The notes under the pieces were generated by a model. The model saw only the letters and a program-made list of their open reading frames with translations, had not been told where the DNA came from and searched no databases. A stretch of 34,214 nucleotides of DNA from Nanobdellota archaeon (GTDB lineage: Archaea; Nanobdellota; Nanobdellia; SCGC-AAA011-G17; ARS1403): positions 60,619 to 94,832 of the forward strand of contig NZBI01000005.1 of assembly GCA_002687825.1 (NCBI GenBank), in the 5' to 3' direction. How positions within the stretch are numbered: position 1 is the first letter of the stretch; the number at the start of each line of letters is the position of its first letter. The position numbers and the translations under genes were made by a program. Shown in pieces: positions 3,615-34,214 of this stretch.

Positions 3615-6600
3615 TTACTTTATCTCAAAATCATGTCCTTTTTTCTTTCCTTTTAATTTCTTTTTCAACTTACTAAAGAAACCTTCTTTCTTAACTGGTT
3701 CAACATCAGCCTTCATTTCTTTCTTCTCTTCTTTTGGTGAAGGTTTTTCTAAAAGTTTCTTTTTCCTACTAAATAATTTATTAAAGAAACTCTTTTTCTC
3801 TTTTGATGAAGATTTTTCTAAAAGCTTTTTAGGTTTTTCTTTCTTAACTTCTTTTTTCTTATCCATTGTTATCGCCATAGGGTCAACTTTCTTTTTCCTA
3901 CTAAATAATTTCTTAAAGAAACTTTTCTTAGGTTTCTCTTCTTTAGGTTTATCTTCTTTCTTGCTTTTCAATTTTTTCTTCAGTTTACCAAAAAATCCCT
4001 CTTTCTTAATTGATTCAAATTCTTGTTTAGGTTTCTCTTCTTTTTTTGGTGAAGCTTTTTCTAAAAGCTTCTTTTTCAACTTACTAAAGAAACCTTCTTT
4101 CTTAACAGGTTTAAAGTCTTGTTTAATTTCTTTCTCTTCAACTTTCTTAGCTCCTTTATGAAGTTCAAAATCATGTTTAATCATATCATCTTTTTTCTTA
4201 AAGTCGATTCTATCTCTAGGAACGTCTTCCCATCTACCAACAACTTTTCCTTTTCCTTTCTTTAAAATCTTCAACAATCCTAAACTAGCAATCCATCTCA
4301 TTTTAGCAAACTTAGGACCTTTAACTTTAACACCGCTAGTTCTAGATATTTTCTTCCTAAATCTTAAAACTAAGAACATTACTAAAATAGCCACAACAAC
4401 ACCCAATCCAATCAAAGAATAAGTACTACTATTAGCAAAAATAGTTATCACTGGCAACCCAGTAAATTTATCTAAAACATTACCCTCGTCCAACCCTCCA
4501 ATAACTTCAACTTCTTCAACAGTTTCATTAACTTCCTCAACTTCTTTAACAGAATTAGTAGTTACAAGAGGTGTATCAACAACATTTTTATTTGCACTAA
4601 CAGCAAAATAACTAAATCCAGGAGTTACAGCAACATATTTCTGATGAATTCCATCAAAACCAGCAGTTAATGTTTCTAACTCAACCCATTTACCATCCTT
4701 ATATCTATTCATAAATATATTAGTAGATTTACCTAAAGCATTAATATTAATCCAACTTTGCTCAACTTTAAACTCAATTTTAGCTTCTTCAACATCTTCC
4801 TCTGAAAAGTCCGTTGAAATTTGTATATATTTATAAACATTAGAAACAACAGACACACTACTTGGCTTACTATCTAATTTAGTGACCGTTATATCCGCAT
4901 TATTCACCGCTTTTTTAAAATTTATGTCCAAACCACTTATACCAACATCTTTACTTATACTTAACTTTTTCCTATCTCCAGCTTTTACATCAAATTTAAA
5001 TGAAGATTTTTTAGTATTGTCCGTTTTTGTACTACTCCCACCACTACTGCTTCCATCACCACTTGAAGGAGAAGAAGAATCATCTGAAGAACAAGAAGCA
5101 AAAGTACTTGAAATATTTTGAGAATCACTTGTACAATAATTAGCATCATAACATAATTTAGTTTTAGAGCCACCCATACAATCACTCCAAGAAGTGCAAT
5201 CTCTACTAAATGTAGATTCAGAAGCACAAGCTACATTAAAATTAAAAGTACTTGAATTTCCACTTTTATCAACTTTATCTGTACATGCAACATCCCAAGT
5301 ATAATTTCCATTAGATAAATAATAAAAATTCTCAGCAAATTCATTAACTGCTCCAGTACTTACAGAACTTAAAGTTTCATTTGTAGTTCCATTAAAAGTT
5401 AAAGTGCAACTTGGAATAGCTAAATCAGTTACATTAAATTGCAAATCAACATTAGCTAAAGAAGTAAAGTTAGTTCCATTCAATGGAGTATTCAAAATAA
5501 CAACAGGAGCAGTTGTATCTATAAATAAAGTTTTATTTCCATTATTAACACAATAATTATTTACATCGCAAGCTTCAACATTCCATAAATAAGTACCCTC
5601 ATCAAATGTATTATTAAATACTAAAGTAGTTTCATTGGTACTCAAATCAAAAGTGCTATTCTCATTCCAGCTAGTAAAATTATGGCTTAATGTAGCATTA
5701 TCTAAATTATACTTACTATCTATAGTAATATTAAATTCAACTAAATTAACATCTGTATAATTATTATCCTCAATGTTATTCAAAGTAAAAGAACCACTAC
5801 TTAACCCAGAAGTATCTCTAACCAAAAATGTTTTTGTAGTAAAATTCTCATTCCCATTTGTATCATTTGCCCAAGCATATATACTATACTCTCCTAATGC
5901 TGTTAAATTATCTGTAATCAATTCTAAACTATTTGTAATATTCGCCAACAAAGTACCATTAGGTAAAGTGATGTTAGCTAAACTAGAATCTAAAAATGAA
6001 TCAACAAATGTTACATTAATAGTTTGATTATCTTGATTTAATTCTAATGTATCATTACTCAAATCTATCTCAAATCTAGGACCAAATAAATCTAAAGCAA
6101 CTATAGAATCATAAATATTTACTCTCTTAAATATCAACCCTTCTCCACCAGTATCATTAACACTTAATCCATTGTCACTTAAATTATTTTCAACTTCACT
6201 AACGGTTAAATTACCACCGCTCTCTAATCTAAAAAACTGTTTTAACAAAGCAATAACACCAGAAACATGCGGTGCAGACATTGAAGTACCAGATCTACTC
6301 TCAGTTCCACCAGTATAACTAGTAGAAGTGATATTTCCACCGGGTGCTAATAAATCTACTAAAGAATTTCTATTACTAAAACTTGAAATTAAATCATCTT
6401 TATCTGTTGAACTAACAGTTGTAGAATTTTGTATACAAGCAGGAACAGAAATCCCAGTACTATTACCATCATTACCACTTGCGACACTCACAATAATATC
6501 ATTTGCAACAGCAGAATTTATAGAATCTCTATAACTAGTATAACTACTATCACAATAACTAGTAGCATTCAAACTAGCTCCTAAACTTATACTTATAACA

Positions 6601-7349
6601 CCAATATTAAAGATAGTTGCATTATTCACACACCAATCAATACCAGAAACAACATCAGAAGTGCTACCTCCGCCACTTGAATCCAAAGCTTTTATAGCAA
6701 TTAAACTAATATTAGGTGCAACCCCAACATAAGTAGTATCATTACTTGCAATTATTCCAGAAACATGAGTTCCATGTCCATGATCATCTATAGGATCTTC
6801 ATCATCATTAACAAAATCATATCCTCCTAAAACCTTACAATTTGTTCCTAAACAACCACCTAAAGCAGGATGAGTATAATTCACCCCAGTATCAATAACA
6901 CAAACAGTTTCTCCAGTCCCTGTTAAATTAGCTGAATCAATTTGCAAAGGATGAACCAAACTAGCATTAATCAAAGGAATAGAATCAGATAAAAAAGCAT
7001 GAACTGGAACATCATATTCAATTTTCTCAACCCTATCATCATTTAATAAAATATCTAACTCAGATTGATCAACTTCAGCACTAAAACCATTAATAATACT
7101 AATTTCACTCTCAACTTCAATATCATTTTTTATATCACTTACAACTTCAGCAACAGTAACTTCTTCAGTAATACTAAAAGCGCCAACATCATTCACAACT
7201 TCATCTTTCAAAATTACAATAACATCTACCTTACCTTCTTCTTCAATTTCCTCAACAACTTCCTCACTTACTAAAACAATATCATCATCTCCAGCACCAA
7301 TAACGCTAATTAATAATAAAAAAACAAAGATAAAGACAAATTTCCTCAT
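3615..7349 (-). CDS. membrane-anchored S8 subtilisin-like protease with repeated basic cytoplasmic tail
   Basis: This is a 1244-residue secreted serine protease. A signal peptide (residues 1-19) is followed by an I9-like propeptide and the S8 catalytic domain. The triad is visible: D153 in VIDTGV, H192 in GHGTHVSG and S356 in GTSMSAPHVSG, with the oxyanion Asn in SGNDG. Ig-like and Cys-containing extracellular modules rich in N-x-S/T sequons fill about residues 420-950. A PGF-pre-type region (NADITVTKL to FSYFAVSA) precedes a membrane helix at about 973-997. The last 245 residues are cytoplasmic and highly basic, with five FF-centred repeats. The start is supported by the Shine-Dalgarno-like GAGGTGA just upstream, and the ATG overlaps the lipoprotein stop by 4 nt. 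It probably processes or degrades cell-surface or external proteins. Confidence 0.93.
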   Translation of the reverse strand: MRKFVFIFVFLLLISVIGAGDDDIVLVSEEVVEEIEEEGKVDVIVILKDEVVNDVGAFSITEEVTVAEVVSDIKNDIEVESEISIINGFSAEVDQSELDILLNDDRVEKIEYDVPVHAFLSDSIPLINASLVHPLQIDSANLTGTGETVCVIDTGVNYTHPALGGCLGTNCKVLGGYDFVNDDEDPIDDHGHGTHVSGIIASNDTTYVGVAPNISLIAIKALDSSGGGSTSDVVSGIDWCVNNATIFNIGVISISLGASLNATSYCDSSYTSYRDSINSAVANDIIVSVASGNDGNSTGISVPACIQNSTTVSSTDKDDLISSFSNRNSLVDLLAPGGNITSTSYTGGTESRSGTSMSAPHVSGVIALLKQFFRLESGGNLTVSEVENNLSDNGLSVNDTGGEGLIFKRVNIYDSIVALDLFGPRFEIDLSNDTLELNQDNQTINVTFVDSFLDSSLANITLPNGTLLANITNSLELITDNLTALGEYSIYAWANDTNGNENFTTKTFLVRDTSGLSSGSFTLNNIEDNNYTDVNLVEFNITIDSKYNLDNATLSHNFTSWNENSTFDLSTNETTLVFNNTFDEGTYLWNVEACDVNNYCVNNGNKTLFIDTTAPVVILNTPLNGTNFTSLANVDLQFNVTDLAIPSCTLTFNGTTNETLSSVSTGAVNEFAENFYYLSNGNYTWDVACTDKVDKSGNSSTFNFNVACASESTFSRDCTSWSDCMGGSKTKLCYDANYCTSDSQNISSTFASCSSDDSSSPSSGDGSSSGGSSTKTDNTKKSSFKFDVKAGDRKKLSISKDVGISGLDINFKKAVNNADITVTKLDSKPSSVSVVSNVYKYIQISTDFSEEDVEEAKIEFKVEQSWININALGKSTNIFMNRYKDGKWVELETLTAGFDGIHQKYVAVTPGFSYFAVSANKNVVDTPLVTTNSVKEVEEVNETVEEVEVIGGLDEGNVLDKFTGLPVITIFANSSTYSLIGLGVVVAILVMFLVLRFRKKISRTSGVKVKGPKFAKMRWIASLGLLKILKKGKGKVVGRWEDVPRDRIDFKKKDDMIKHDFELHKGAKKVEEKEIKQDFKPVKKEGFFSKLKKKLLEKASPKKEEKPKQEFESIKKEGFFGKLKKKLKSKKEDKPKEEKPKKSFFKKLFSRKKKVDPMAITMDKKKEVKKEKPKKLLEKSSSKEKKSFFNKLFSRKKKLLEKPSPKEEKKEMKADVEPVKKEGFFSKLKKKLKGKKKGHDFEIK
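3650..4105 (-). repeat. five FF-basic repeats in the subtilase cytoplasmic tail
   Basis: The region encodes GFFSKLKKKL, GFFGKLKKKL, SFFKKLFSRKKK, SFFNKLFSRKKK and GFFSKLKKKL, separated by Lys/Glu/Pro-rich linkers (for example EKPSPKEEKKE). The DNA copies are alike, for instance ttactaaagaaaccttc recurs at the first and last copies. The repeats lie after the membrane helix, so they face the cytoplasm. Confidence 0.85.
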
Positions 7350-17616: not shown

Positions 17617-19083
17617 TTAGTCAAAAATTTTAAACATATTTCGATCATTAGAACCTTTTTTATCATCTTCAGACTTAACAGGATTTTCTCTTTTAACTTT
17701 ACTAACTAAATGATTAATATCTTCTTGTTTGATAGTATCATCTTTAGTATGTGTTCTTTCAAGAATATGCTTACCTTTTTCAGCAACATTCTTCAAATCT
17801 TTCTTTCCTGTTTTGATAAAACTTTTACCTTTCCTAACAACCATATAAATAAAAAATAGAAATACAAAAGTCAAAGCTCCCCATCCAGCATAACTACTCC
17901 CACTAAATCTTCTGCCTTCCAAAACAACACTACCAGTTATAGCATTTCCACTATCTACAGTAACTTTATATTCTCCAGCATAGGAAACTTCCTTATTCAA
18001 ATCAAACGTAATTGTCTGATTAGGTTTCAAAATTGTCTCTTTAACAAAAACTACTTCACTAGCCCCTTCTAGTTTTACTTCAATAGGACTATCATAATCA
18101 ACATTTCCTGTATTTTTAACAAATAAATCACTACCCATTAACCACGTCTCTTTAGTTTTACTCTCTTCAACAATAAAATCTTTTACAACTTCTAAACCAC
18201 CACCATTAGCTCTAATTTTCCAAGTTCCAGGTACAGAAAATCCGTCTAATTCAACATCAAAAATATCATTTGTAGGAACATTTTTTGTATATTCAAGTCC
18301 TCCTTCAGGATTAAAAACTTCAACAACAACATCACCCTTAATCACTCCACCGGATTGATCAGAAATAAAAGCATCTCCACTAATAGTAGTTCCAGGAGCA
18401 TAAGAATCTAAAACATTCAAACCAATAACAGTCGGAACTGCAGCAATTTTAAAGCTTGCAAAATCTTCTCCTTTATTACCATTTAAATCTTCAACCTTAA
18501 ATAAAATTTCATGTTTACCAGCAATTATATCTAAAGGCAAAATATGATTATAACTAAATTCACCACTTTCCAAATTAATTAAATTTTCAACTCCATCTAT
18601 AGTCAAACTTGCTCCTCCATTTTCGACAATTTCTCCATTTAATTTATGTGCACTTCCAGTAATAACAACAACATCTCCAGGTTCAGCAAGTAATTTATCA
18701 ACTATAGCATTAGCTTTTAATTCATCCGTAATCAAAAAAGTATTTGAGGTCCTCTCAAAATCCTCAACAGCACCTTCAACACTAACTAAAAAATTACAAC
18801 TTCCCATCAATCTCTCTCTAGTAGGAATCTCCAAATCAAAATCATGTACTTCATCAGCAACTAAATCAATTAAACTAAAATAAGCAGGTAAAGATTCATC
18901 ATCACAATAAAGATCTATCTTCAAAGCTCCAACAACTCCTTCACTATATGAAATACTACTTTTAACATTAATTTTCTCTCCAATATTATATTTTTCTCTA
19001 GTAAAATCATCTATTGTAATCTCAGCTAATACTAATTGTATAGAAAGTAAAACTAATACTAAGTATATCAAACTCTTTTTCAT
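17617..19083 (-). CDS. exported Ig-like surface protein with C-terminal membrane anchor
   Basis: This 488-residue protein has a signal peptide (1-20, ending VLA|EI). It carries several beta-sandwich modules, including EPGDVVVITGSAHKLNGE and YAPGTTISGDAFISDQSG segments typical of archaeal Ig-like repeats. A late CARDB-like module (FVKNTGNVDYDSPIEVKLEG) precedes a membrane helix near residues 400-418 and a 70-residue charged cytoplasmic tail. It is probably a cell-envelope protein with a structural or adhesive role. Its TATATATAAA element (19104-19113) faces away from thrS and is separate from the thrS box. Confidence 0.82.
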   Translation of the reverse strand: MKKSLIYLVLVLLSIQLVLAEITIDDFTREKYNIGEKINVKSSISYSEGVVGALKIDLYCDDESLPAYFSLIDLVADEVHDFDLEIPTRERLMGSCNFLVSVEGAVEDFERTSNTFLITDELKANAIVDKLLAEPGDVVVITGSAHKLNGEIVENGGASLTIDGVENLINLESGEFSYNHILPLDIIAGKHEILFKVEDLNGNKGEDFASFKIAAVPTVIGLNVLDSYAPGTTISGDAFISDQSGGVIKGDVVVEVFNPEGGLEYTKNVPTNDIFDVELDGFSVPGTWKIRANGGGLEVVKDFIVEESKTKETWLMGSDLFVKNTGNVDYDSPIEVKLEGASEVVFVKETILKPNQTITFDLNKEVSYAGEYKVTVDSGNAITGSVVLEGRRFSGSSYAGWGALTFVFLFFIYMVVRKGKSFIKTGKKDLKNVAEKGKHILERTHTKDDTIKQEDINHLVSKVKRENPVKSEDDKKGSNDRNMFKIFD

Positions 19084-21982: not shown

Positions 21983-22885
21983 TTAAGGTAAACTTCTATA
22001 TTTAGTATTCATCAAACTCCATTCTAATAACAATAAACTCAACCCAATTAACATAAAAGATATAGTTAAATTATAACTTAATCTCTGAACTTTACTCTTA
22101 GAAATATCAGAAAAAGCATCTTTTAACTCTTCTAAATTCTCAACTTTAAAATATTGCCCTCCTGTTTGCGAAGCAATTTCCATTAAAGGCTCTTCATTTA
22201 GTCTACTCAAAACATCGCTCCCTTCAATAAACCTTCCTCCTGTTGGAGTACCAATCCCAATAGTATGGACTAAAATTTTCTTTTCATTCAAATATTGTAT
22301 AGCTCCTCTAGGACTTAAACCAACATTACTCTGCCCATCTGTTAATATAACTAAAACATTTCCTTCTTCTTTTTCGAATAACAAATTAGAAGCAGTAACC
22401 ATAGAATCCCCAATAGCCGTACCTCCAATTTCTTCAATACCAATTCCATTAATTGCTTTTCTTAAATCTCTTTTACTTTCAGTCATTTTCTGTTTGATAA
22501 ACGTAGTCCCTGTGAAAGTAGCTACGGCCATATTAACAACTCCAGGAAAAGAATTTAAAAAACTCAAGGCCGCATCTTTAGCAGCTTCAATTCTATTGGG
22601 CTCATAATCTTCAGCCAACATACTTACACTAGCATCTATCAAAACAGCATAATCAAATGTACTTCCTTGTCCAGTATACCAATAAGTTGTACCAGCTGCA
22701 GAAAAAACCAAAAAAGAAATAATAATAATTCTTAATAACAACAAAGAAAAATTCTTACTAGTGACTTTCTTCCCAGTTAATTTTTCAATAACTTCATAAT
22801 TAGCAAACCTCAACGCTTTTCTTTTAGTATATTTTAAACTAAAAAAATGAATTATAACTAAAATTGGAAGAACTATGAAAAACAA
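21983..22885 (-). CDS. membrane-anchored von Willebrand factor A protein (BatA/BatB-like)
   Basis: This protein of about 300 residues has a VWA domain flanked by membrane helices: two at the N-terminus (FFIVLPILVIIHFF and LLLLRIIIISFLVFSA) and one at the C-terminus. The MIDAS metal site shows D-A-S-V-S (IDASVSM), a Thr in GGTAIGDS and D in LTDGQSN. It is probably the partner engaged by the MoxR ATPase and DUF58 protein encoded upstream. The TTG at 22885 is the only standard start. The frame continues upstream as PIVTFDNPEYLL, matching the F-x-N-P-x-x-L opening of BatA-like proteins, with no ATG, GTG or TTG. An ATA (22915, overlapping the DUF58 stop as ATAG) or ATT (22921) start is therefore possible. 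Confidence 0.88.
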   Translation of the reverse strand: MFFIVLPILVIIHFFSLKYTKRKALRFANYEVIEKLTGKKVTSKNFSLLLLRIIIISFLVFSAAGTTYWYTGQGSTFDYAVLIDASVSMLAEDYEPNRIEAAKDAALSFLNSFPGVVNMAVATFTGTTFIKQKMTESKRDLRKAINGIGIEEIGGTAIGDSMVTASNLLFEKEEGNVLVILTDGQSNVGLSPRGAIQYLNEKKILVHTIGIGTPTGGRFIEGSDVLSRLNEEPLMEIASQTGGQYFKVENLEELKDAFSDISKSKVQRLSYNLTISFMLIGLSLLLLEWSLMNTKYRSLP

Positions 22886-22911: not shown

Positions 22912-23796
22912 CTATCGGAATTTTTGCTCCCTCCTAGCAAACATTTTAATAAGAGGATTAACAAAATCCTTATCTGTACTTAAGCTCAAAAACTCTGAAC
23001 CAGCTTTCTTAAAAACTTCCTCTAATTGATATTCTTGTTTTTTAACATACTTAGAATATTTCTTACTTATAGATTTAGGATGTAAAGATAACTTCTCACT
23101 ACCATAAGGATCTTCAACAACAACATCTCCAACATCTTCTGGCAATTCCCTATCTCTAGGATCTCTAACCATCAAAGCAATAACATCAAATTTAGCAGAA
23201 ACTTTTTTAATATATTTTTCCCAACCCTTTTGCAATCCAATAAAATCAGAAACAATGAATAATAAACTACTTCCTTCTAAAAACTGCAAAGTAAAATCTA
23301 AAGCCTTATTCAAATCATACCTCCCCCCGTATAATTTTGAATTTGTCAAAGCCCCTAATAAAAAATAATATTGCTTCTCTCCACTCTGCGGCTTAATCCC
23401 TCTAACTATTTTGTCATTAAACATCCCGATCCCAATACTATCATCATTCTGCATAGAAGCGTAAGAAAGACTAGCAATTAGTTCAGCACCATATTGATTT
23501 TTCAATCTCTCAGTACTTCCAAATAACATACTAGTACTAACATCAAATAGAAAATAAATATTTAAATTCCTCTCTTCTTTAAATTCTTTAATTAACAAAC
23601 CATTAGTTCTAACACTCGCCTTCCAATCTATCAAAGAACTATCATCCTCCGGCATATATTTTCTAAATCCATCAAATTCTAGACCACTACCTTTAAAAGC
23701 ACTTTTATAATTTCCAGTCATTTTAGAAGTCGTGAAACCTTTAGTAACAATATCCAATTGAGTAACTAAATTTTTAACTTTTAATTTGAATGCCAT
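22912..23796 (-). CDS. DUF58 protein
   Basis: This 294-residue DUF58 family protein is the usual companion of MoxR ATPases. The signature FKGSGLEFDGFRKYMPEDD followed by SLIDWKASVRTNGLLIKEF is clear. The C-terminal two thirds fold as a VWA-like domain with FLFDVSTSM as a MIDAS-like site. There is no membrane helix. It starts 5 nt after the moxR stop and overlaps the probable true start of the VWA gene, so all three are one transcript. In bacteria such sets act as a chaperone-like system for complex assembly or stress, and the archaeal target is unknown. Confidence 0.9.
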   Translation of the reverse strand: MAFKLKVKNLVTQLDIVTKGFTTSKMTGNYKSAFKGSGLEFDGFRKYMPEDDSSLIDWKASVRTNGLLIKEFKEERNLNIYFLFDVSTSMLFGSTERLKNQYGAELIASLSYASMQNDDSIGIGMFNDKIVRGIKPQSGEKQYYFLLGALTNSKLYGGRYDLNKALDFTLQFLEGSSLLFIVSDFIGLQKGWEKYIKKVSAKFDVIALMVRDPRDRELPEDVGDVVVEDPYGSEKLSLHPKSISKKYSKYVKKQEYQLEEVFKKAGSEFLSLSTDKDFVNPLIKMFARREQKFR

Positions 23797-23801
23797 TTTA
23801 A

Positions 23802-25238
23802 TTAAGGAACTGGAACTTTTGCAAGAATCTCTTTAATAATATCATCCCTATCAATATTTTCAGCTTGTCCTTCGTAATTTAATAAAATCCTATGCCTCAA
23901 GACATCAGGAGCTACTTCTTTAACATGTTGCGGCGTAACAAATTCTTTCCCACTCATTAAAGCTTCAGATTTAGAAGCTATATATAATCCAATACTTGCC
24001 CTAGGGGAACTACCAAACCTCAAATATTTAGAACTTTTCAAATTATATTTTTCAGGATGTCTAGTAGCATCTACTAACCTTACTATATATTCCTGAACAG
24101 AATCATTAACATAGATCTGTTTAACAGTATTCTGCATTTTAAGTATATCTAAAGGTCCAATAACACTTCTCAATTGAAATTCATCAAAATGCCTTATAGT
24201 AATATTATTAGCCAAAATAGCTCTTTCTTCTTTTTTAGTTGGATAATCTATATATAATTTAAACAAAAATCTATCAATTTGCGCCTCAGGTAATTGATAT
24301 GTACCTTGAGTTTCAATAGGATTCTGAGTAGCCAATACAAAAAAAGGAGCATCGATACCAAAACTTTGCCTACCAATTGTAACTTGTTGTTCTTGCATAG
24401 CTTCCAATAATGCACTTTGAACCTTAGCTGGGGCTCTATTAATCTCATCTGCTAATAAAAAATTAGTAAAAACAGGACCTTTTATAACAAAAAAACCTTT
24501 ATTCTTCTCATAAGAAGTAATTCCCACAATATCTGTAGGTAATAAATCCGCAGTAAACTGCACCCTTTTAGTCTTAGAACTAGTAACCTGTGCCAAAGAT
24601 CTCATAATCAAAGTTTTAGCAATTCCAGGCACCCCTTCTAATAAAACATGACCATTAGAAATAACTGCTCTTAATATACTATCAATAACTTTATCCTGTC
24701 CAACAACAGATTTAGCCATTTCTTTTTTAACATTTTCAATATCAGTACGAAATTTATGTAAATCATGAGGACTAACATGTCCAGTCCTACTAATTTTTTG
24801 AGGTTTAAGCTTAGAACCAATTTTTTCAACTATAGAGCGCATCTTATTCTTTATAATTCCATTATGAGACTTCTCAGCCTTTGAATGACTATGATTTAGT
24901 TTAGAATCTTTCTTCTGTTTATCTTTTATAGCTTCATTGTGAAATCTTCCAACCTTTGAATGACTATGATTTAATTTAGAGGTTTTTTGTTTTCCTTTTA
25001 TAATACCATTGTGAAACTTCTCAGCTTTTGAATGGCTGCTATCTAACTTAGAACTTTTTTTAAGTTTATTTTTCACAATATTTTTTTGAATTTTTGAGTG
25101 ACTACGATCTAATTTAAAATTTTTCTTCTGTTTACCTTTTATAATACCATTGTGAAACTTCTCAGCTTTTGAATGACTACGATCTAATTTAGAATCCTTC
25201 TTCTTGCTACTAACTACAGACCTCACCTTCTTTTTCAT
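23802..25238 (-). CDS. MoxR-type AAA+ ATPase with N-terminal basic repeat extension
   Basis: This 478-residue protein is about 150 longer than standard MoxR ATPases. The core is complete: Walker A GVPGIAKT (about residue 200), Walker B LLADEINRAP (about 265), sensor region ATQNPIETQGTYQLPEAQIDRF split by its conserved prolines, and the C-terminal lid with PRASIGLYIASK. The first 150 residues consist of five Lys-rich repeats based on SKLDRSHSKAEKFHNGIIKG. These have no counterpart in typical MoxR proteins and are very probably disordered. It leads the MoxR-DUF58-VWA operon. Its box (TTATATAAA, 25261-25269) is 27 nt upstream of the ATG. Confidence 0.93.
   Translation of the reverse strand: MKKKVRSVVSSKKKDSKLDRSHSKAEKFHNGIIKGKQKKNFKLDRSHSKIQKNIVKNKLKKSSKLDSSHSKAEKFHNGIIKGKQKTSKLNHSHSKVGRFHNEAIKDKQKKDSKLNHSHSKAEKSHNGIIKNKMRSIVEKIGSKLKPQKISRTGHVSPHDLHKFRTDIENVKKEMAKSVVGQDKVIDSILRAVISNGHVLLEGVPGIAKTLIMRSLAQVTSSKTKRVQFTADLLPTDIVGITSYEKNKGFFVIKGPVFTNFLLADEINRAPAKVQSALLEAMQEQQVTIGRQSFGIDAPFFVLATQNPIETQGTYQLPEAQIDRFLFKLYIDYPTKKEERAILANNITIRHFDEFQLRSVIGPLDILKMQNTVKQIYVNDSVQEYIVRLVDATRHPEKYNLKSSKYLRFGSSPRASIGLYIASKSEALMSGKEFVTPQHVKEVAPDVLRHRILLNYEGQAENIDRDDIIKEILAKVPVP
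24835..25215 (-). repeat. five tandem repeats in the MoxR N-terminus
   Basis: Units of about 22-27 codons encode SKLDRSHSKAEKFHNGIIKG, FKLDRSHSKIQKNIVKNK, SKLDSSHSKAEKFHNGIIKG, SKLNHSHSKVGRFHNEAIKD and SKLNHSHSKAEKSHNGIIKN. Units 1 and 3 are almost identical in DNA (both contain taccattgtgaaacttctca), showing recent duplication. Confidence 0.88.
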
Positions 25239-25260
25239 AGTTTTAAAAAACAGTTCTGGA

Positions 25261-25269
25261 TTATATAAA
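25261..25269 (-). promoter_or_regulatory. TATA box of the moxR operon
   Basis: On the minus strand it reads TTTATATAA, centred 27 nt from the ATG at 25238. Confidence 0.5.
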
Positions 25270-25315
25270 AGTATGTTACTACTTTAAAAAAATTATAAAG
25301 ATTTATTAATAACTA

Positions 25316-25422
25316 TATACCTAAGTACTATCAAGATAATACACAGATATAGATAAGAAATATTTAAATATTACCTAAATTAACTTAGATTTAGTAAAAT
25401 AGACCAAAGGTATACCTAAGTA
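25316..25422. promoter_or_regulatory. repeated TACCTAA sites flanking the RHH gene promoter (candidate operator)
   Basis: TATACCTAAGTA occurs at 25316-25327 and again at 25411-25422, the second copy ending on the A of the start codon. A third site, TTACCTAAATTAACTTAG at 25371-25388, carries TACCTAA plus an inverted CTTAG just upstream of the probable TATA box (25390-25399). TACCTAAGTA is itself near-palindromic. The layout suits binding by the RHH protein encoded here, that is, autoregulation. Confidence 0.5.
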
Positions 25423-25865
25423 TGAACAAAACACAAGAAAGAGCATTAAACTGGCTTATTCAAGAAGGACACAAAAAACAAGATATTACATTTAAACAGA
25501 GTTCTCCATGTTTTTTCATAAAAGATAAAAAATATGATGTTAAACGTTTATACGGAAATCAAATAATTTTCTACAACAATCAATATAAACAACTCAAAAA
25601 ATTCCCAAACACAACAATTTTAGTCTTTAGGGATAATGAATCCTCTCCTTATCAAAAAATAAATTTTAGCGAAATAAAAGACCTCCCTTCTAGATACAAA
25701 GATATTGAAATCAATTGGGTAGACATCTCAACTCAAGTAAGAACTCTAAGAATTTCAGATAAAACAAAAGAAAGATTACAAGAACATGGCAAAATGGGAG
25801 AAGATTTTGACAATTTAATCAATCGTCTACTAGACACATTAGAAAAACATGAAAGAAAGAAATAA
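25422..25865 (+). CDS. PD-(D/E)XK-like plus ribbon-helix-helix protein
   Basis: This 147-residue protein has two parts. Residues 106-138 (VRTLRISDKTKERLQEHGKM, then GEDFDNLINRLL) match archaeal ribbon-helix-helix DNA-binding domains. Residues 1-100 read like a small restriction-endonuclease-like fold, with QSSPCFFIKDKKYDVKRLYG and then NNQYKQL followed by TTILVFRDN. D39-V-K41 stands where the (D/E)-x-K pair falls, but the expected first Asp is Cys30, so nuclease activity may be lost. That fold assignment is from pattern memory only. It overlaps the giant membrane protein by 17 nt and is divergent from moxR. Its promoter carries repeated sites fit for autoregulation. Confidence 0.72.
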   Translation: MNKTQERALNWLIQEGHKKQDITFKQSSPCFFIKDKKYDVKRLYGNQIIFYNNQYKQLKKFPNTTILVFRDNESSPYQKINFSEIKDLPSRYKDIEINWVDISTQVRTLRISDKTKERLQEHGKMGEDFDNLINRLLDTLEKHERKK

Positions 25866-28800
25866 GCTAGGAATAAGTATTTTACTTGTATTCATTTTAT
25901 TAGTCACTAGTATAACTGCTCAAGAAAAACCTCCTGAAGAAGATGGTACTTATGTAACGAGCTCAGATATTCAATCTCAATTCTCAGATCCATCAATTAA
26001 ATTATCATTTAGATCTTGGGGAGAAGGAAGAGAAACAACAATTAATTTAGATGATTATTTCATAGGACAAAGAAAATCTGATAATAGATTCCTTTTCATA
26101 TCGCCTCCAGAAATAGATATTACCATAGATCAAGAAACAAGTTTAGCAGTTTTAAAATCTAGGGGTAGGTGGATTGGGACTAAAGAAGTAGTTTTCACTC
26201 AATCCTCCATTTATAATTTAGAAAAATCAATTATCGAATTAGAGGATTTTGAATCAGAATTAATCAAAAAACGTATTCCTCCAAAAATCAAAAATGAAAT
26301 AGAAACACTAAGAGATGCTCCAGCATTTAATATGTTAGAAAACATAATTGATAGTTTAGAAAAAAGAAAAAGTCAAAAAACACCAGAGATTACAGCAAGA
26401 TTTGCACAAAATAGATTAAGTGTAAATGTAGGAGAAGATATCGATTTAAGTGTTGGAATTCAAACCGAAACTCAAGGAATCAAAACTAAAAAACCAGAAT
26501 TAAGTTTAAACATAAGACCAGGACAAGTAGATGGTGCTGAAGAAGAATTAGAAGAATCAGCATTTCCAATTGTACTTCTTTTCCCAATAATATTAATCGG
26601 TGGAAGTTTACTCCTAGTTTTAGGGATCTATATTGTGAGGAACAAGAGAAGTATAAAACAGATGGTTCCTAAAGTAAAACAAACAAAACCAGAGTTATTA
26701 GCTAAAAATATCAAAATAATAGCAAATTATAGAAATGAAGTTAAAGAAGTAAAATCAAAATTAAATTCTATACCAATAGAAAAATCAGCTAAGAAATCAT
26801 TTGAAATAATCCAAAACTTCTTTGATACTTTAACAAATCCAAATTTCGAATTTACATATTCAGAAATAAAAAAAGAAATTTTAGAAGAAGGATTAAATAA
26901 ACAGACAGAAAACTTCTTAATCAAATTCTCAAAAGAATTAGTAGATTTCAAATACAGCAACCAAGCAGCATCAAAACAAGGGTTATCTCAAGTATTAAAC
27001 AAGGTAAATAAGGCAATAGAAATGTCTGTAAAAGATCTATCTAAGATACAATTACAAGAAGAAGTAAAATTAGAAAAGAAAAGACCAATAATAAATTTAG
27101 TAGTCAAATTAAGAAATTATCTAAAAGGTACAGAATTACCAAAAACTCCTGAGAAAAAAGATGAAAAAGTCCATTCAACTAAAAAGAAACATTCAACTTT
27201 AAGCACAAGCATCTTCAAAAGAATCTTTTCTTTCTCAAAAAGAACTTCTGCTAAAGAAGTAGAGAAAATAGCATTACAAAAGTACGAAGCTAAGGAAAGA
27301 AAGAAAACAGAAAATAGAACTAAAATTGAACACTTCTTAAAAGAATTCTTCCATAAAAATTTTGGATTATTCAAAACACAAAAAGAGATAAATCAAATCA
27401 GAGAAAACAAAAGAAAGATAGCTTTAGCCAAAGAAAGAGCAAAATTAAAGATCATAGAAAAGAAAAGAAAAGAAAAACAGTTAAGAAAATTACAAAGAAG
27501 ACATGCTATTAAGAAATTCTTCCATGATATTTTCGGATTATACAAAACATCAAAAGAAATAGAATCAGAGAAAGAAGAAAGAAGAAAATTAAAATTAGAA
27601 AAAGAGAGAATTGCAAGAGAAATTAAGTTAGCAAAACTTAGAGCTAAAAAGAAAAAATCAGATGAATTCAAAAATTTCTTCAGAATCTATTTTGGATTAT
27701 TTAAATCAAAAGAAGAAGTAGAAAAAGAAATCAGAACAAGATTATTAGCAAGACAAAAGAAAAAGATAGCAAGACAACAAGCGACATTAAATTTCTTCAG
27801 AAAATTAGGTTTATTCAAAACAGACGGAGAAATACAATCAGAAAGGGAAGCTAAATTACTAAAAGAAAGATTAAAAGAAAGATTAAAAGAAGAGAAAAGA
27901 AGAGAAAAATTAAGAATAAGAACTACTAAAAAAAGAGCAAGAATAGCATTCTTCCATGATAATTTTGGCTTATTCAAAACACAAGAAGAAAAAGAGACCA
28001 TAATTAGAGCAAAATTCGAAGAAACAAGAAGAGAAGAAAACAAAAAATTAAGAGAAAAGAGAGAAGTTCAAAGAGAAAAAGAAGAAAAAGAAAGATTGAA
28101 AGAAAGAGAAAAAACAAGAATTCAAGAATTAAAAAATAAAATAAAACTACAAAAAAGAAAAGCTTTCTACTCCTTCATACATAATACTTTAGGAATAAAA
28201 ACTCTAAAAGAAAAACATTTAGAAAAAATAAGGGAAGCAAGATTAAAATTAAAAACGGTAAAAGAGAAAAGAAAAATCAAAGAGGAAAAACAACAAAGAT
28301 TTAGATCCTTCTTCCATGATAATTTCGGATTATATAGGACTCATGAAGAAAAAGAATATTATGCAATTAAAAAATTAAAAGACAAAAGAAGAAAAAGCAT
28401 TGCAAGAAGAAAGGCTTTCTTAACATATTGTCATGACAAGTTAGGATTATTTAAAACAAAGTCAGAAATAGAAAATGAGAAAGAAAGAAAACTAAGATTA
28501 GAAACAAAAGTAAAGAAAGAAAAAATAAAAACAAAAATAGAAAGAAGAAGAGCTTGGAGAAAGTTTTTCCACAATAATTTTGGATTATATAAAACAAAAG
28601 AAGAATTACAATTATTAAGAGAAAGAGAAAGAGAAAAAAGAATAAGAAGTCAAAATAAAAAAATAAGAGAAGCAAAAGCAAGTTTAACAAAGAGACATCT
28701 AAGAAACAAAGCAATCCATAAATTCTTACACAACTTAGGTTTCTTCAAAACAAAAGAAGAACTACAAAAATTAAGATTGGAAAAAAGACTAGATAAAAGA

Positions 28801-30525
28801 AAGCATGAAAGATCAAAGCTAAGGAATTTAAAAAGAAGAGAAAAGAGACAGTTAGAAATTAAGAAATATTTACATGATCATTTCGGATTATTCAGAACAA
28901 GAGATGAAAAGATAAAGTTAGAAATAAAAAATAGGAAAGAAAAACAAAGAAAGAGAGAATTAAAGCTTAAACTAGAATTTGAAAAAGAGAAAATCAGAAA
29001 GAAAAGAAGAGAATTAATCCACGGTTTCTTACATGATAAATTAGGATTCTTTAAAACATACAAAGAAAAACAGAAAGAAGAAAGAAGAAAGAAAGTAAAA
29101 AAATTAGAATTAGAAAATAAAGTAACCGAAAGATTTAGCTTCTTCAAAAAATTATTCAAAAAAGATGAAATAACAAAAAGTGACGAACTTCATGTTTTAA
29201 TAAAACTAGAACAAAACGCCATAAGAAGAGGGGAAATAAAAAAAGCAAAACAATTGCAAAGAAAAATTAATAAAATATACAAGAAAATAAACTTCCAAAA
29301 AAACCATCCAACCTTAACAAGAGACTATAACATAATAAAAAATAGCTTAAAATCTTTTAAATCAGTAGAATCTCAAACCTCATTCACTTCAAAAATTAAA
29401 TCCCTATTTTCAAAAGAGCCAGAAAAGAATAAAATAGATGAAATTCTTTTCTTGATTAATAGATGTGAAAAATCTCTAAATTCCAACAGAAGAAGAGACT
29501 CCCAAGATTTATTTGCAAGAATAGTAAATATGTATTCAAAATTAAATAATACATCTAAAAAAATAATAGAAAAAAATATCTTAAATCTAAGATCTGAAAC
29601 CGCAGCAATCCTAGTAAAAGAATCCTTAGAAAAGGCACATGAATCTTTAAGAGAAGGAAGAATAAAAGAAGCGAAAACACTATACAAAGAAATAAAGCAA
29701 AACTTCTATTATCTCCCATTAAGACACAGAGAAAATTTACTAGAACATAAAAATTCATTATCTGAAAAATTACAAAAAAAGAAAAAATTCATAATTTCAT
29801 TGCCAAGAATACCAATTCCCGAATTCAATATCTTAACATTTTACAACTTACAAAAAGAAAAAATGATGGACAAATTTAAAGAATTAAAGATAGTTTCAAA
29901 AGTAAAACCCCTAAAAGAAAAAGAATCTCTTACAAACTATTTACTAGCAAGAAAACCCAAATTCATTTCAATTCAAACCAATACAATACCAAAGTCTCAA
30001 ATCAGAAAAAACAGAAAGAGAACAGTTAGAGAAATTTTCAAACATATTGATATTGGCCATTCTCATTTAAAAAGAAAAGATCATTTAAGAGCCAAAGAAA
30101 AATACAAAGAAGTTTTAGAACTATTCAAAGATTCCTCTCATGAACTTCCATTAGAATTCCAAAAATTAGTTCATAGAAAATTAAAACCTCTGAAAGAAAA
30201 AATATTGCACGTTAGTCTTAAAAATTTTATGTCAGAAATAAATCTAGCAATCAAAAAGGGAGAGCATTCGACAGCAAAGGAACTAGAAAAAAAAGTAAAG
30301 TCGATATACTCACATTTATCCAAAACTGAAACTCTCCCTTTCACACCTCCCAAAAGCAGTTTCAAACAAATAAATGATTTAATTAATTCACTAGATCCTA
30401 ATTCAAAAAAAGCAAATCAAAATTATAAAAAAATAACTAGTATCTACAACACTTTATCAATTCGACAAAAAAGACAAGTTTATTCTAAAATGTTAAAAGC
30501 CTACAAAGAAATAGTTGAGAATTAA
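25849..30525 (+). CDS. giant membrane protein with about twelve FFHDxFGLFKT cytoplasmic repeats
   Basis: This 1558-residue protein starts with a signal peptide or anchor (LGISILLVFILLVTSITAQ). An extracellular region of about 210 residues follows, including a beta-domain (ITARFAQNRLSVNVGEDIDL). A membrane helix lies at about 239-262 (FPIVLLFPIILIGGSLLLVL). The rest faces the cytoplasm. Residues about 490-1075 alternate FFHDxFGLFKT-type motifs with Lys/Arg/Glu-rich helices likely to be coiled coil. Residues about 1105-1558 form TPR-like helical pairs (EAKTLYKEIKQNFYYLPLRH, RAKEKYKEVLELF). I know no described family with this layout. It overlaps the nuclease-like/RHH gene by 17 nt and faces away from the MoxR operon. 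A scaffold or cytoskeletal tether at the membrane is a plausible inference. Confidence 0.85.
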   Translation: MKERNKLGISILLVFILLVTSITAQEKPPEEDGTYVTSSDIQSQFSDPSIKLSFRSWGEGRETTINLDDYFIGQRKSDNRFLFISPPEIDITIDQETSLAVLKSRGRWIGTKEVVFTQSSIYNLEKSIIELEDFESELIKKRIPPKIKNEIETLRDAPAFNMLENIIDSLEKRKSQKTPEITARFAQNRLSVNVGEDIDLSVGIQTETQGIKTKKPELSLNIRPGQVDGAEEELEESAFPIVLLFPIILIGGSLLLVLGIYIVRNKRSIKQMVPKVKQTKPELLAKNIKIIANYRNEVKEVKSKLNSIPIEKSAKKSFEIIQNFFDTLTNPNFEFTYSEIKKEILEEGLNKQTENFLIKFSKELVDFKYSNQAASKQGLSQVLNKVNKAIEMSVKDLSKIQLQEEVKLEKKRPIINLVVKLRNYLKGTELPKTPEKKDEKVHSTKKKHSTLSTSIFKRIFSFSKRTSAKEVEKIALQKYEAKERKKTENRTKIEHFLKEFFHKNFGLFKTQKEINQIRENKRKIALAKERAKLKIIEKKRKEKQLRKLQRRHAIKKFFHDIFGLYKTSKEIESEKEERRKLKLEKERIAREIKLAKLRAKKKKSDEFKNFFRIYFGLFKSKEEVEKEIRTRLLARQKKKIARQQATLNFFRKLGLFKTDGEIQSEREAKLLKERLKERLKEEKRREKLRIRTTKKRARIAFFHDNFGLFKTQEEKETIIRAKFEETRREENKKLREKREVQREKEEKERLKEREKTRIQELKNKIKLQKRKAFYSFIHNTLGIKTLKEKHLEKIREARLKLKTVKEKRKIKEEKQQRFRSFFHDNFGLYRTHEEKEYYAIKKLKDKRRKSIARRKAFLTYCHDKLGLFKTKSEIENEKERKLRLETKVKKEKIKTKIERRRAWRKFFHNNFGLYKTKEELQLLREREREKRIRSQNKKIREAKASLTKRHLRNKAIHKFLHNLGFFKTKEELQKLRLEKRLDKRKHERSKLRNLKRREKRQLEIKKYLHDHFGLFRTRDEKIKLEIKNRKEKQRKRELKLKLEFEKEKIRKKRRELIHGFLHDKLGFFKTYKEKQKEERRKKVKKLELENKVTERFSFFKKLFKKDEITKSDELHVLIKLEQNAIRRGEIKKAKQLQRKINKIYKKINFQKNHPTLTRDYNIIKNSLKSFKSVESQTSFTSKIKSLFSKEPEKNKIDEILFLINRCEKSLNSNRRRDSQDLFARIVNMYSKLNNTSKKIIEKNILNLRSETAAILVKESLEKAHESLREGRIKEAKTLYKEIKQNFYYLPLRHRENLLEHKNSLSEKLQKKKKFIISLPRIPIPEFNILTFYNLQKEKMMDKFKELKIVSKVKPLKEKESLTNYLLARKPKFISIQTNTIPKSQIRKNRKRTVREIFKHIDIGHSHLKRKDHLRAKEKYKEVLELFKDSSHELPLEFQKLVHRKLKPLKEKILHVSLKNFMSEINLAIKKGEHSTAKELEKKVKSIYSHLSKTETLPFTPPKSSFKQINDLINSLDPNSKKANQNYKKITSIYNTLSIRQKRQVYSKMLKAYKEIVEN
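27325..29075 (+). repeat. about twelve diverged FFHDxFGLFKT repeats
   Basis: Core motifs begin near 27340, 27510, 27670, 27790, 27940, 28170, 28305, 28420, 28560, 28715, 28860 and 29020. Protein forms include FFHKNFGLFKT, FFHDIFGLYKT, FFRIYFGLFKS, FFRKLGLFKT, FFHDNFGLFKT, FIHNTLGIKT, YCHDKLGLFKT, FFHNNFGLYKT, FLHNLGFFKT and YLHDHFGLFRT. The period averages about 50 residues (range about 38-75). The linkers are charged helices, and the coding strand is strongly purine-rich. Confidence 0.88.
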
Positions 30526-33016: not shown

Positions 33017-33082
33017 AATATATCAAATATCAAAACAATAACAAAAACATTTATATATAACCATGTATAACAAATATATCAA
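33017..33082 (+). promoter_or_regulatory. promoter of the small RHH gene with flanking direct repeats
   Basis: TTTATATATAA (33050-33060) is centred 27 nt before the ATG at 33082. AATATATCAA occurs at 33017-33026 and at 33073-33082, the second copy ending on the A of the start codon. This is the same geometry as in the 25422 cassette, though the sequence is AT-rich and chance is possible. Confidence 0.45.
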
Positions 33083-33216
33083 TGGGTAAAGAAAAGGTTA
33101 CCACAATTAGAGTTCTAGAATCAACAAAGTATCAGTTAGGAGAATATGGAAAAAAGAATGAAACTTACGATGATATAATCAAAAGACTAGTAGAGGAGGT
33201 GCTAAATGAAAAATAA
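33082..33216 (+). CDS. 44-residue ribbon-helix-helix protein
   Basis: This is a free-standing RHH DNA-binding domain: MGKEKVTTIRVLESTKYQLG, then EYGKKNETYDDIIKRLVEEV. It aligns with the C-terminal domain of the 25422 protein (T-I/L-R-V/I, T-K-x2-L, G-K-x2-E-x-Y/F-D, I-x-R-L). It is short like antitoxin or autorepressor RHH proteins, but no toxin follows. Instead its last 11 nt overlap the start of a secreted repeat protein. Control of its own transcript and of that surface gene is the likely job. Confidence 0.85.
   Translation: MGKEKVTTIRVLESTKYQLGEYGKKNETYDDIIKRLVEEVLNEK
33195..33201 (+). promoter_or_regulatory. strong Shine-Dalgarno GGAGGTG inside the RHH gene
   Basis: GGAGGTG ends 4 nt before the ATG at 33206. 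It lets the surface protein be translated from the RHH transcript and is the best ribosome-binding site in the window. Confidence 0.7.
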
Positions 33217-34214
33217 CATCTTCAAATTAATTTTAGTAATTTTAATCTTAATGATTACAGTACAAACTGCATTTTCATCAGATTTAATGGCTTTAGAAGC
33301 AAACATTTTCGATAACACAGGAGCACCTTTAACAGGAAATTTAACTGTAGAAATCTATGATGCTTTAACAGATGGAACCTTAATTTACAATTCAACAAAC
33401 GATTTCATAGATAACATCACAGATGGAAAAGTAGATGTTATGCTAGGTTCCGGTTCAGTACCATTAAATTTAACTTATGGAGAAAGATATTTCATGGATA
33501 TTTTCGTAAATGATGAAGATATTAATTTCTCAGGAGAAGGTAGACAAGAATTCACATCTCCAATTGGAAATATTACTCTAAACAAATTAAACTTTTCAAC
33601 TTCATTAATTCCAGAAGCTAATGTTACTTTCGATATAGGATCCTCTGAAAGGTACTTAAATAATTTATATGTTCAAACTTTAAACATCTTAACCCAAATA
33701 ACAACATCCCAAATAGCTACTAATGCAATTACTTCAGCTTTAATAGCAGAACAAACCATAACTGCAGATGATATAGCAACTGATGCAATAAACACAACTC
33801 ATATTTTAGACGGAACAATAACCTCAGATGACATTGCAGATACCAGTATTAATGCTTCTCATATCGTATCTACTTTAGACGTCACTAACTACACTGCCGG
33901 CACCCAGGTAACCGTAAGTGGACATGTTATCTCCTCCAGCGCCATACCAGCTACCAATGTTGCTTTCTTAAACGAATCCTGGCTTAACAACACTTACGTG
34001 GAACTAGAAGGGGGGGATACTATCTTAGGAGCTTTAGCAGTAAATGGTTTGTTAACAATTGGCAACTTAGTCACCGGCTTCGTAAACACCACCCATATCT
34101 TAGATAGAACCCTCGGAAGTGATGATCTAGCTGACTCCAGCATCAACACTTCTCTAATCTTAGATAGAACAATAACCTCGGATGACATTGCAGATACCAG
34201 TATTAATGCTTCTC
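33206..34214 (+). CDS. secreted repeat-containing surface protein (3' end outside window)
   Basis: The frame is open from the ATG at 33206 to the window edge (336 codons) and is incomplete. A signal peptide (FKLILVILILMITVQTAFSS) is followed by a beta-domain (ANIFDNTGAPLTGNLTVEIY), a hinge (PEANVTFDIGSSERYLNNLY), then repeats of the type TITSDDIADTSINASHI. These resemble the ITSADIADG repeats of phage-tail-like and adhesin stalks. A 46-bp DNA repeat recurs 354 bp apart. From about 33885 codons shift to C-ending forms (acc, gcc, tcc, agc), unlike the A/T-ending codons before, suggesting a recombined segment. It is coupled to the RHH gene by an 11-nt overlap. Confidence 0.8.
   Translation, partial: MKNNIFKLILVILILMITVQTAFSSDLMALEANIFDNTGAPLTGNLTVEIYDALTDGTLIYNSTNDFIDNITDGKVDVMLGSGSVPLNLTYGERYFMDIFVNDEDINFSGEGRQEFTSPIGNITLNKLNFSTSLIPEANVTFDIGSSERYLNNLYVQTLNILTQITTSQIATNAITSALIAEQTITADDIATDAINTTHILDGTITSDDIADTSINASHIVSTLDVTNYTAGTQVTVSGHVISSSAIPATNVAFLNESWLNNTYVELEGGDTILGALAVNGLLTIGNLVTGFVNTTHILDRTLGSDDLADSSINTSLILDRTITSDDIADTSINAS
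33815..33860 (+). repeat. 46-bp direct repeat, copy 1, in the surface protein
   Basis: It matches 34169-34214 at 45 of 46 positions (one A/G difference in cctcA/Ggatg). It encodes TITSDDIADTSINAS. The offset of 354 bp is 118 codons, so the frame is kept. Confidence 0.85.
34169..34214 (+). repeat. 46-bp direct repeat, copy 2, in the surface protein
   Basis: This is the second copy of the 33815-33860 element, running to the window edge, so the repeat may extend further. Confidence 0.85.

Follow-up and report, generated by a model that had tools for sequence, protein, structure and literature searches.

The window, i.e. the whole 34,214-nt stretch of DNA that was analysed, belongs to a Nanobdellota archaeon genome of 775 kb in 25 contigs. 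It exhibits an ORF for a small RHH protein and, overlapping the end of that ORF by 17 nt, an ORF for a giant membrane protein; both lie at the positions and have the sizes reported in a first-pass annotation. The same annotation had placed a divergent MoxR-DUF58-VWA cluster beside them, and Pfam identifies these neighbours (AAA_3, DUF58, and VWA with BatA). According to Pfam and the gene tables the three genes stand in tandem, forming a Bat-type cluster. The features are collected in Table 1. The MoxR gene contains a 75-nt tandem repeat at 24850-25204.

Table 1. Features of the MoxR/RHH/giant locus (positions are those of the window)
Feature	Position	Strand	Evidence
VWA protein, BatA-type N-terminus, third gene of the MoxR cluster	21983..22885	-	PF00092, E 3.1e-19; PF07584 (BatA), E 8.5e-6
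DUF58 protein	22912..23796	-	PF01882, E 2.2e-43
MoxR AAA+ ATPase with a long repetitive N-terminal extension	23802..25238	-	AAA_3 PF07726, E 3.9e-58
Divergent MoxR/RHH intergenic region	25239..25421	.	divergent arrangement kept in seven genomes
Operator-like box TACCTAAGTA, copy 1	25318..25327	+	
Operator-like box TACCTAAGTA, copy 2, overlapping the RHH start codon	25413..25422	+	
RHH protein, 147 aa; aa 1-100 PD-(D/E)XK-like, aa 107-145 DUF7557 RHH	25422..25865	+	PF24434, E 8.7e-8; AF2; 7 orthologues
Giant membrane protein, 1558 aa, start inside the end of the RHH gene	25849..30525	+	orthologues in seven related genomes; ORF list
Giant: signal sequence, aa 1-24	25849..25920	+	hydrophobic N-terminus; AF2 helix 3-26; conserved AQ after it
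Giant: exported head, aa 25-239, beta-rich, conserved IDQxTxxAxL...G motif	25921..26565	+	profile A6
Giant: transmembrane helix, aa 240-264	26566..26640	+	hydropathy maximum at aa 242; AF2 helix 241-264
Giant: cytoplasmic helical domain, aa 280-411	26686..27081	+	AF2, pLDDT mostly 70-87
Giant: repeat rod, 12 FFHDxFGLFKT copies, aa 492-1085	27322..29103	+	repeat profile; AF2
Giant: C-terminal helical units, aa 1110-1558, TPR-like Y...Y..L....K..Y pattern	29176..30522	+	profile A7

Each of the seven related genomes from this family contains the giant. The order VWA-DUF58-MoxR, divergent from the RHH gene followed by the giant, is kept at seven of the seven readable loci, the window included (the contig of G004 stops short of the RHH gene; that of G005 stops within the MoxR frame). 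The coding overlap between the RHH gene and the giant ranges from 4 to 17 nt at these loci. The gene pair is conserved and coupled, and it recurs beside MoxR. Genes downstream of the giant are usually RtcB or archease. In a search of 145 genomes the full RHH protein was confined to this family; no distant full-length relative was found there, the other matches being mainly to the RHH part or interrupted by stops. Relatives of the RHH protein that carry names come from Woesearchaeota/Nanoarchaeota metagenome assemblies.

The export signal and single membrane helix read in the giant at first pass agree with its hydropathy profile (an N-terminal signal-like stretch and one strong membrane helix) and with the AF2 helices; the tail of the protein is strongly basic. 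TPR-like helices had also been described, and the pattern is indeed present in the C-terminal units, whereas the Pfam matches to TPR lie below the cut-offs (TPR_2, 14.7 bits against 27, E = 0.034). A match to SbsC_spectrin-like (E = 0.001) is likewise below the Pfam cut-off. The profile of the C-terminal units (A7) matches at 29437-29598 and 30358-30522. A fold search with the AF2 model of the giant, which was built from seven sequences, gave no significant match, the beta-rich head being modelled with pLDDT mostly 30-50, too low for its fold to be read; a sequence search of solved structures with the head and RHH profiles returned nothing convincing.

The charged rod was said to contain about twelve FFHDxFGLFKT repeats, and a repeat profile identifies exactly 12, of which 11 score 44-53 bits and one is degenerate (8.6 bits). 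With 64 copies over the eight orthologues, the repeat is far from chance. Its number varies from 1 in G006 (981 aa) to 15 in G001. The motif columns are tightly conserved (Gly, Thr and Glu at 90% or more across divergent copies), and the motif exhibits a hydrophobic face at positions -3, 0, +1, +5, +7 and +8 with Lys/Arg on its flanks. The repeat has no match in Pfam or NCBIfam. As this holds together with the linkage kept at all readable loci, both the novelty of the repeat and the pairing of the two genes, on which the first-pass annotation depended, stand.

Linkers, measured from the motif Thr to the first Phe of the next motif, take lengths of 18, 21, 29, 32, 36, 39, 40, 43, 47, 51, 58, 65, 81, 83 and 90 residues over the giants. 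These lengths are phase-locked at 3.62-3.64 residues (R = 0.73, equalled by 0 of 20,000 random sets, p < 5e-5; bootstrap 95% range of the pitch 3.60-3.77). A coiled-coil linker was rejected, R being 0.28 for the lengths and 0.02 for hydrophobic residues at a pitch of 3.5. The linkers are 60% charged with about 1% Gly+Pro; they exhibit no hydrophobic stripe at any tested pitch, and hydrophobic conservation is restricted to the motif. A continuous amphipathic helix was rejected on the lack of such a stripe. The AF2 model (rod pLDDT mostly 60-85) predicts helices at 511-562, 568-615, 621-652 and 659-706 that break exactly at GLFK with the Thr as N-cap, so that the structure prediction for a repeat plus linker gives helices interrupted precisely at the motifs. 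The giant combines a new repeat with helical linkers that are locked in phase, and these results fit a rod of straight single helices and hydrophobic hinge patches, all in one orientation. The rod DNA exhibits purine-rich tandem tracts.

The linkers resemble single alpha-helix (ER/K) domains in being highly charged and helical with no hydrophobic seam and a pitch near 3.6. Unlike those domains, the rod is basic rather than balanced, E-to-K pairs are enriched at i+3 (z = 7.6) and weak at i+4 (z = 1.7), and a conserved hydrophobic hinge motif interrupts the helices. The rod seems to be a naturally occurring example of helical phase under selection; part of the phasing could stem from 7- or 11-residue indels in the low-complexity DNA that encodes the helices, rather than from selection on geometry.

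The first-pass annotation was right that the repeat belongs to no known family, but the repeat is not peculiar to the RHH-giant pair. A genome search with the profile recovered it from G005, where two more large exported proteins carry it in their cytoplasmic tails, and from a 1451-aa protein of G062, which belongs to another family. Beyond these, it occurs in 12 genomes from further families of the class; in one of them, G279, it lies in open frames of 8,692 and 10,932 residues. In the examples inspected, the motif lies C-terminal to a membrane helix. The linkers of three such tails exhibit the same phase at 3.6 as those of the giants (-4 versus +4 degrees), with four distinct lengths only (49, 50, 54 and 83). 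In G278, of yet another family, a MoxR-adjacent protein matches both the cytoplasmic domain and the repeat. From its occurrence in tails across families, the repeat is a class-wide tail element and no invention of this operon. Since the tails of other exported proteins bear it too, the role of the rod need not be MoxR-specific. In uncultured archaea, the repeat profile flags a group of large tails on surface proteins. A tentative extension, which we consider possible though well short of even, is that FFHDxFGLFKT marks an undescribed class of DPANN cytoplasmic tail, a modular phase-locked rod borne by many unrelated exported proteins, which here sits on a MoxR partner and would form a cortical scaffold for the MoxR machine.

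A search with the head of the giant finds, in other families of this order, shorter proteins of about 360-490 aa. In G016 and G025 such a protein is encoded divergently beside MoxR-DUF58-VWA, with neither an RHH gene nor repeats. The A6 profile, made from 13 head sequences, matches 67 of the 145 genomes. Of the 40 non-family genomes that contain both an A6 match and MoxR, 17 place a head or cytoplasmic-domain relative no further than 6 kb from MoxR, where about 1.5 would be expected (Poisson p = 5e-13, a value that counts kin genomes as independent, with distances taken by hand from the tables). Outside the family, according to the gene tables, the partner gene may lie divergently to MoxR, stand in convergent orientation next to VWA, or immediately precede MoxR. 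The domain at aa 280-411 is the part of the giant most often found beside MoxR, and in one family it exists as a free 120-aa protein. The giant thus belongs, by profiles and gene order, to a broader family of MoxR partners that neighbour MoxR-DUF58-VWA in many archaeal families. The earlier suggestion that MoxR may act on the giant becomes both stronger and more specific with this family, and the giant is best read as a membrane partner of MoxR-DUF58-VWA. The C-terminal units (A7) are also matched in many of the same MoxR-adjacent proteins, so that the repeats sit between two apparently older modules; we infer that the ancestral partner joined the C-terminal units to the head or to the cytoplasmic domain, and that the rod was inserted between them in this family.

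MoxR-class AAA+ proteins with a VWA partner are known from NorQ/NorD and RavA/ViaA, and NorQD is a MoxR/VWA pair that remodels its target (PMC13036017). Those systems act on known respiratory enzymes and, unlike the present locus, have no membrane rod protein. Our literature search found no paper covering both Woesearchaeota and MoxR. MoxR-DUF58-VWA clusters are widespread and their substrates mostly unknown; a conserved membrane partner now seems tied to this machine across many archaeal families, and the 120-aa cytoplasmic domain, which also exists alone, offers a concrete bait for it.

In the arrangement that we propose, the locus would be a divergent two-operon unit. On one side, MoxR-DUF58-VWA would constitute a membrane-linked AAA+/VWA remodelling machine; on the other, a small RHH regulator would be followed by the translationally coupled giant, acting as the machine's membrane partner. 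The expected contact of the giant with MoxR, and with DUF58 and VWA, is its cytoplasmic helical domain (aa 280-411). Between this domain and the C-terminal units the family would have added the long rod, in which each helix would run from the motif Thr to FFHDxF, with Gly-Leu-Phe-Lys serving as hinge and the FF..F face as hydrophobic docking patch. As linker length changes by whole helical turns only, successive patches would share one orientation. The rod may then act as a scaffold or spacer built in segments, whose adjustable length would set the position of the C-terminal units and of clients; alternatively, its repeated identical patches may dock to a partner or to other copies. Either role would agree with a MoxR system that drives the maturation or assembly of exported proteins.

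The main rival reading, which we consider rather unlikely, takes the rod as a membrane- or nucleic-acid-binding element and the giant as a cortical skeleton, or as a tether, that acts independently of MoxR. Its basic helices would lie along the acidic inner face of the membrane (or bind DNA, RNA or ribosomes), and the FF..FGLF patches would insert like in-plane amphipathic anchors. A net charge of about +8 to +14 per 50 residues across most of the rod agrees with this, as do the strong hydrophobic face of the motif between its Lys/Arg flanks, a constant helical phase that would turn all patches to one surface, and the sharing of the motif with other membrane-anchored tails. Against it, the linkers lack a hydrophobic stripe (R = 0.04), the helix breaks within the motif, unlike a continuous amphipathic anchor, and the MoxR linkage of the head is left unexplained.

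We regard it as unlikely that the giant is a genuine, if divergent, BatD within a Bat operon that has kept its function. The layout speaks for it: a signal peptide, an exported beta region, a membrane helix, a cytoplasmic helical domain and TPR-like units are shared, the gene stands next to MoxR and a BatA-type VWA as in the Bat operon (MoxR, DUF58, BatA/BatB VWA, BatC TPR, BatD), and in Borrelia a BatD-TPR fusion is found beside MoxR/VWA (PMC5700661). However, Pfam BatD (PF13584) has 0 matches in the window genome, while three control genomes match, and it is absent among the matches listed for the 13 head sequences; we therefore call the giant BatD-like in layout, not BatD. The locus further differs from the Bat operon in that the partner is divergent from MoxR and accompanied by an RHH regulator and a rod of 1-15 copies. 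The function of the Bat proteins is itself unsettled (PMC3557215), which weakens this reading as an explanation.

That the rod is a neutral expansion drifting by slippage, with only the head, cytoplasmic domain and C-terminal units of importance, appears quite improbable. The wide range in copy number, the variable linker lengths and the purine-rich tracts are what slippage would leave, but the conservation of the motif Gly, Thr and Glu across divergent copies, the retained helical phase and the occurrence of the motif in other families argue against it.

Returning to the giant as a MoxR partner under RHH control, we turn to the small protein encoded upstream. The C-terminal RHH domain, reported at first pass, is matched by DUF7557 and its signature is present in all seven members; it also resembles VapB (PF02697, E = 0.026). 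The N-terminus had been called nuclease-like. AF2 predicts the order a-b-b-b-b-a-b for aa 1-70 (pLDDT about 75-92 over aa 1-100), and this predicted topology, with its (D/E)xK strand, resembles that of PD-(D/E)XK nucleases; Hjc, YaeQ, XisH and PvuII are among the top Foldseek rows, none of them significant (E = 0.3-2), and the best match against viral models (E = 0.016, to an unnamed protein) is not decisive. Nuclease-like probably describes the fold only: the metal-binding PD Asp is replaced by Cys, Asn or Ala in seven of seven orthologues (SP[CNA]F), the (D/E)x(K/R) being retained. With this Asp lost in all seven, nuclease activity is unlikely and the protein is probably no nuclease. A defence-like pair, with the RHH protein as active nuclease or as antitoxin to a toxic or effector giant, is very improbable despite the nuclease-like topology and fold names and the VapB resemblance, given the lost Asp, the non-significant fold scores, the presence of the pair in every family member with a readable locus rather than sporadically, and the membership of the giant in a membrane-system partner family.

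The intergenic region between the two operons contains repeated palindromic operator-like sites near the RHH gene's own putative promoter. Boxes close to TACCTAGGTA number 2-6 in the MoxR/RHH intergenic region of all seven RHH loci, against 0 in seven MoxR intergenic regions without RHH, and the distinct distances between boxes follow a 10.5-bp phase (R = 0.90, n = 11). The box was recognised by eye ahead of testing, and for the window genome by itself its count exceeds that of shuffled sequence only marginally (p = 0.054), so the strength of the observation lies in the seven-genome comparison. Phased boxes present only where the RHH gene is present tie these candidate operators to that gene and point to a local regulator. 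The RHH protein would bind the boxes between the two operons, repressing locally, and probably controls both. CopG/MetJ/VapB regulators likewise combine an RHH domain with short palindromic boxes repeated on one DNA face, here judged by sequence; unlike them, the present protein is fused to a degenerate PD-(D/E)XK-like domain and its sites are confined to its own divergent promoter region. Overall, the locus most likely encodes an elaborated membrane partner of a MoxR-DUF58-VWA machine under RHH control, a reading that we hold with slightly better than even confidence, and the boxes provide a testable candidate regulator for the whole two-operon unit. In the 775-kb genome TACCTARGTA occurs at three sites, two of them in the MoxR/RHH intergenic region; the third lies inside the coding frame of a surface-type protein and was taken as a chance occurrence.

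A gene for a large S-layer-like surface protein lies, in two of the compared archaeal genomes (G046 and G035), directly upstream of the cytoplasmic-domain protein (a relative of the cytoplasmic helical domain of the giant membrane protein) and of MoxR-DUF58-VWA, all on one strand. This upstream position on the same strand suggests that the MoxR-DUF58-VWA machine has a surface-protein client.

The window encodes other exported proteins with cytoplasmic tails. The tail of the subtilase is repetitive, rich in aromatic and basic residues, and built of KKEGFFSKLKKKL-type units. The exported protein with beta domains is adjoined by a threonyl-tRNA-synthetase-like gene, and this pairing is kept in those related loci that extend that far. 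A second RHH gene followed by an exported-protein gene is also present, the start of the surface-type protein sharing 11 nt with the DUF7557 RHH ORF. In genome G279, the tails at the ends of both very long open frames carry the FFHDxFGLFKT repeat of the giant protein.

The N-terminal extension of the window MoxR contains KLDRSHSKAEKFHNGIIKGKQKK units of about 25 aa each, encoded by the 75-nt repeats; no such repeats were seen in those MoxR starts of its relatives that were read. The two MoxR inteins share a common insertion point, at about position 78 of the AAA_3 profile.

Coordinates of features in the window and in loci (L) of the compared genomes (G)
Feature	Location	Strand	Remarks
Secreted subtilase	window 3615-7349	-	C-terminal membrane helix, basic cytoplasmic tail
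Exported protein	window 17617-19083	-	beta domains, one membrane helix, charged cytoplasmic tail
MoxR tandem repeats	window 24850-25204	- (gene)	75 nt x five, imperfect; N-terminal extension
DUF7557 RHH ORF	window 33082-33216		44 aa
Exported surface-type protein	window 33206-34213		next after the 44-aa RHH ORF
Intein-interrupted MoxR	L107:2906-5494, L034:2-3544		G037 and G005
Intein-interrupted RtcB	L037:13458-16358		G007
Large S-layer-like surface protein gene	L102, L103		G046, G035
Open frames of 10,932 and 8,692 residues	L119, L120		both G279, same class as the window genome
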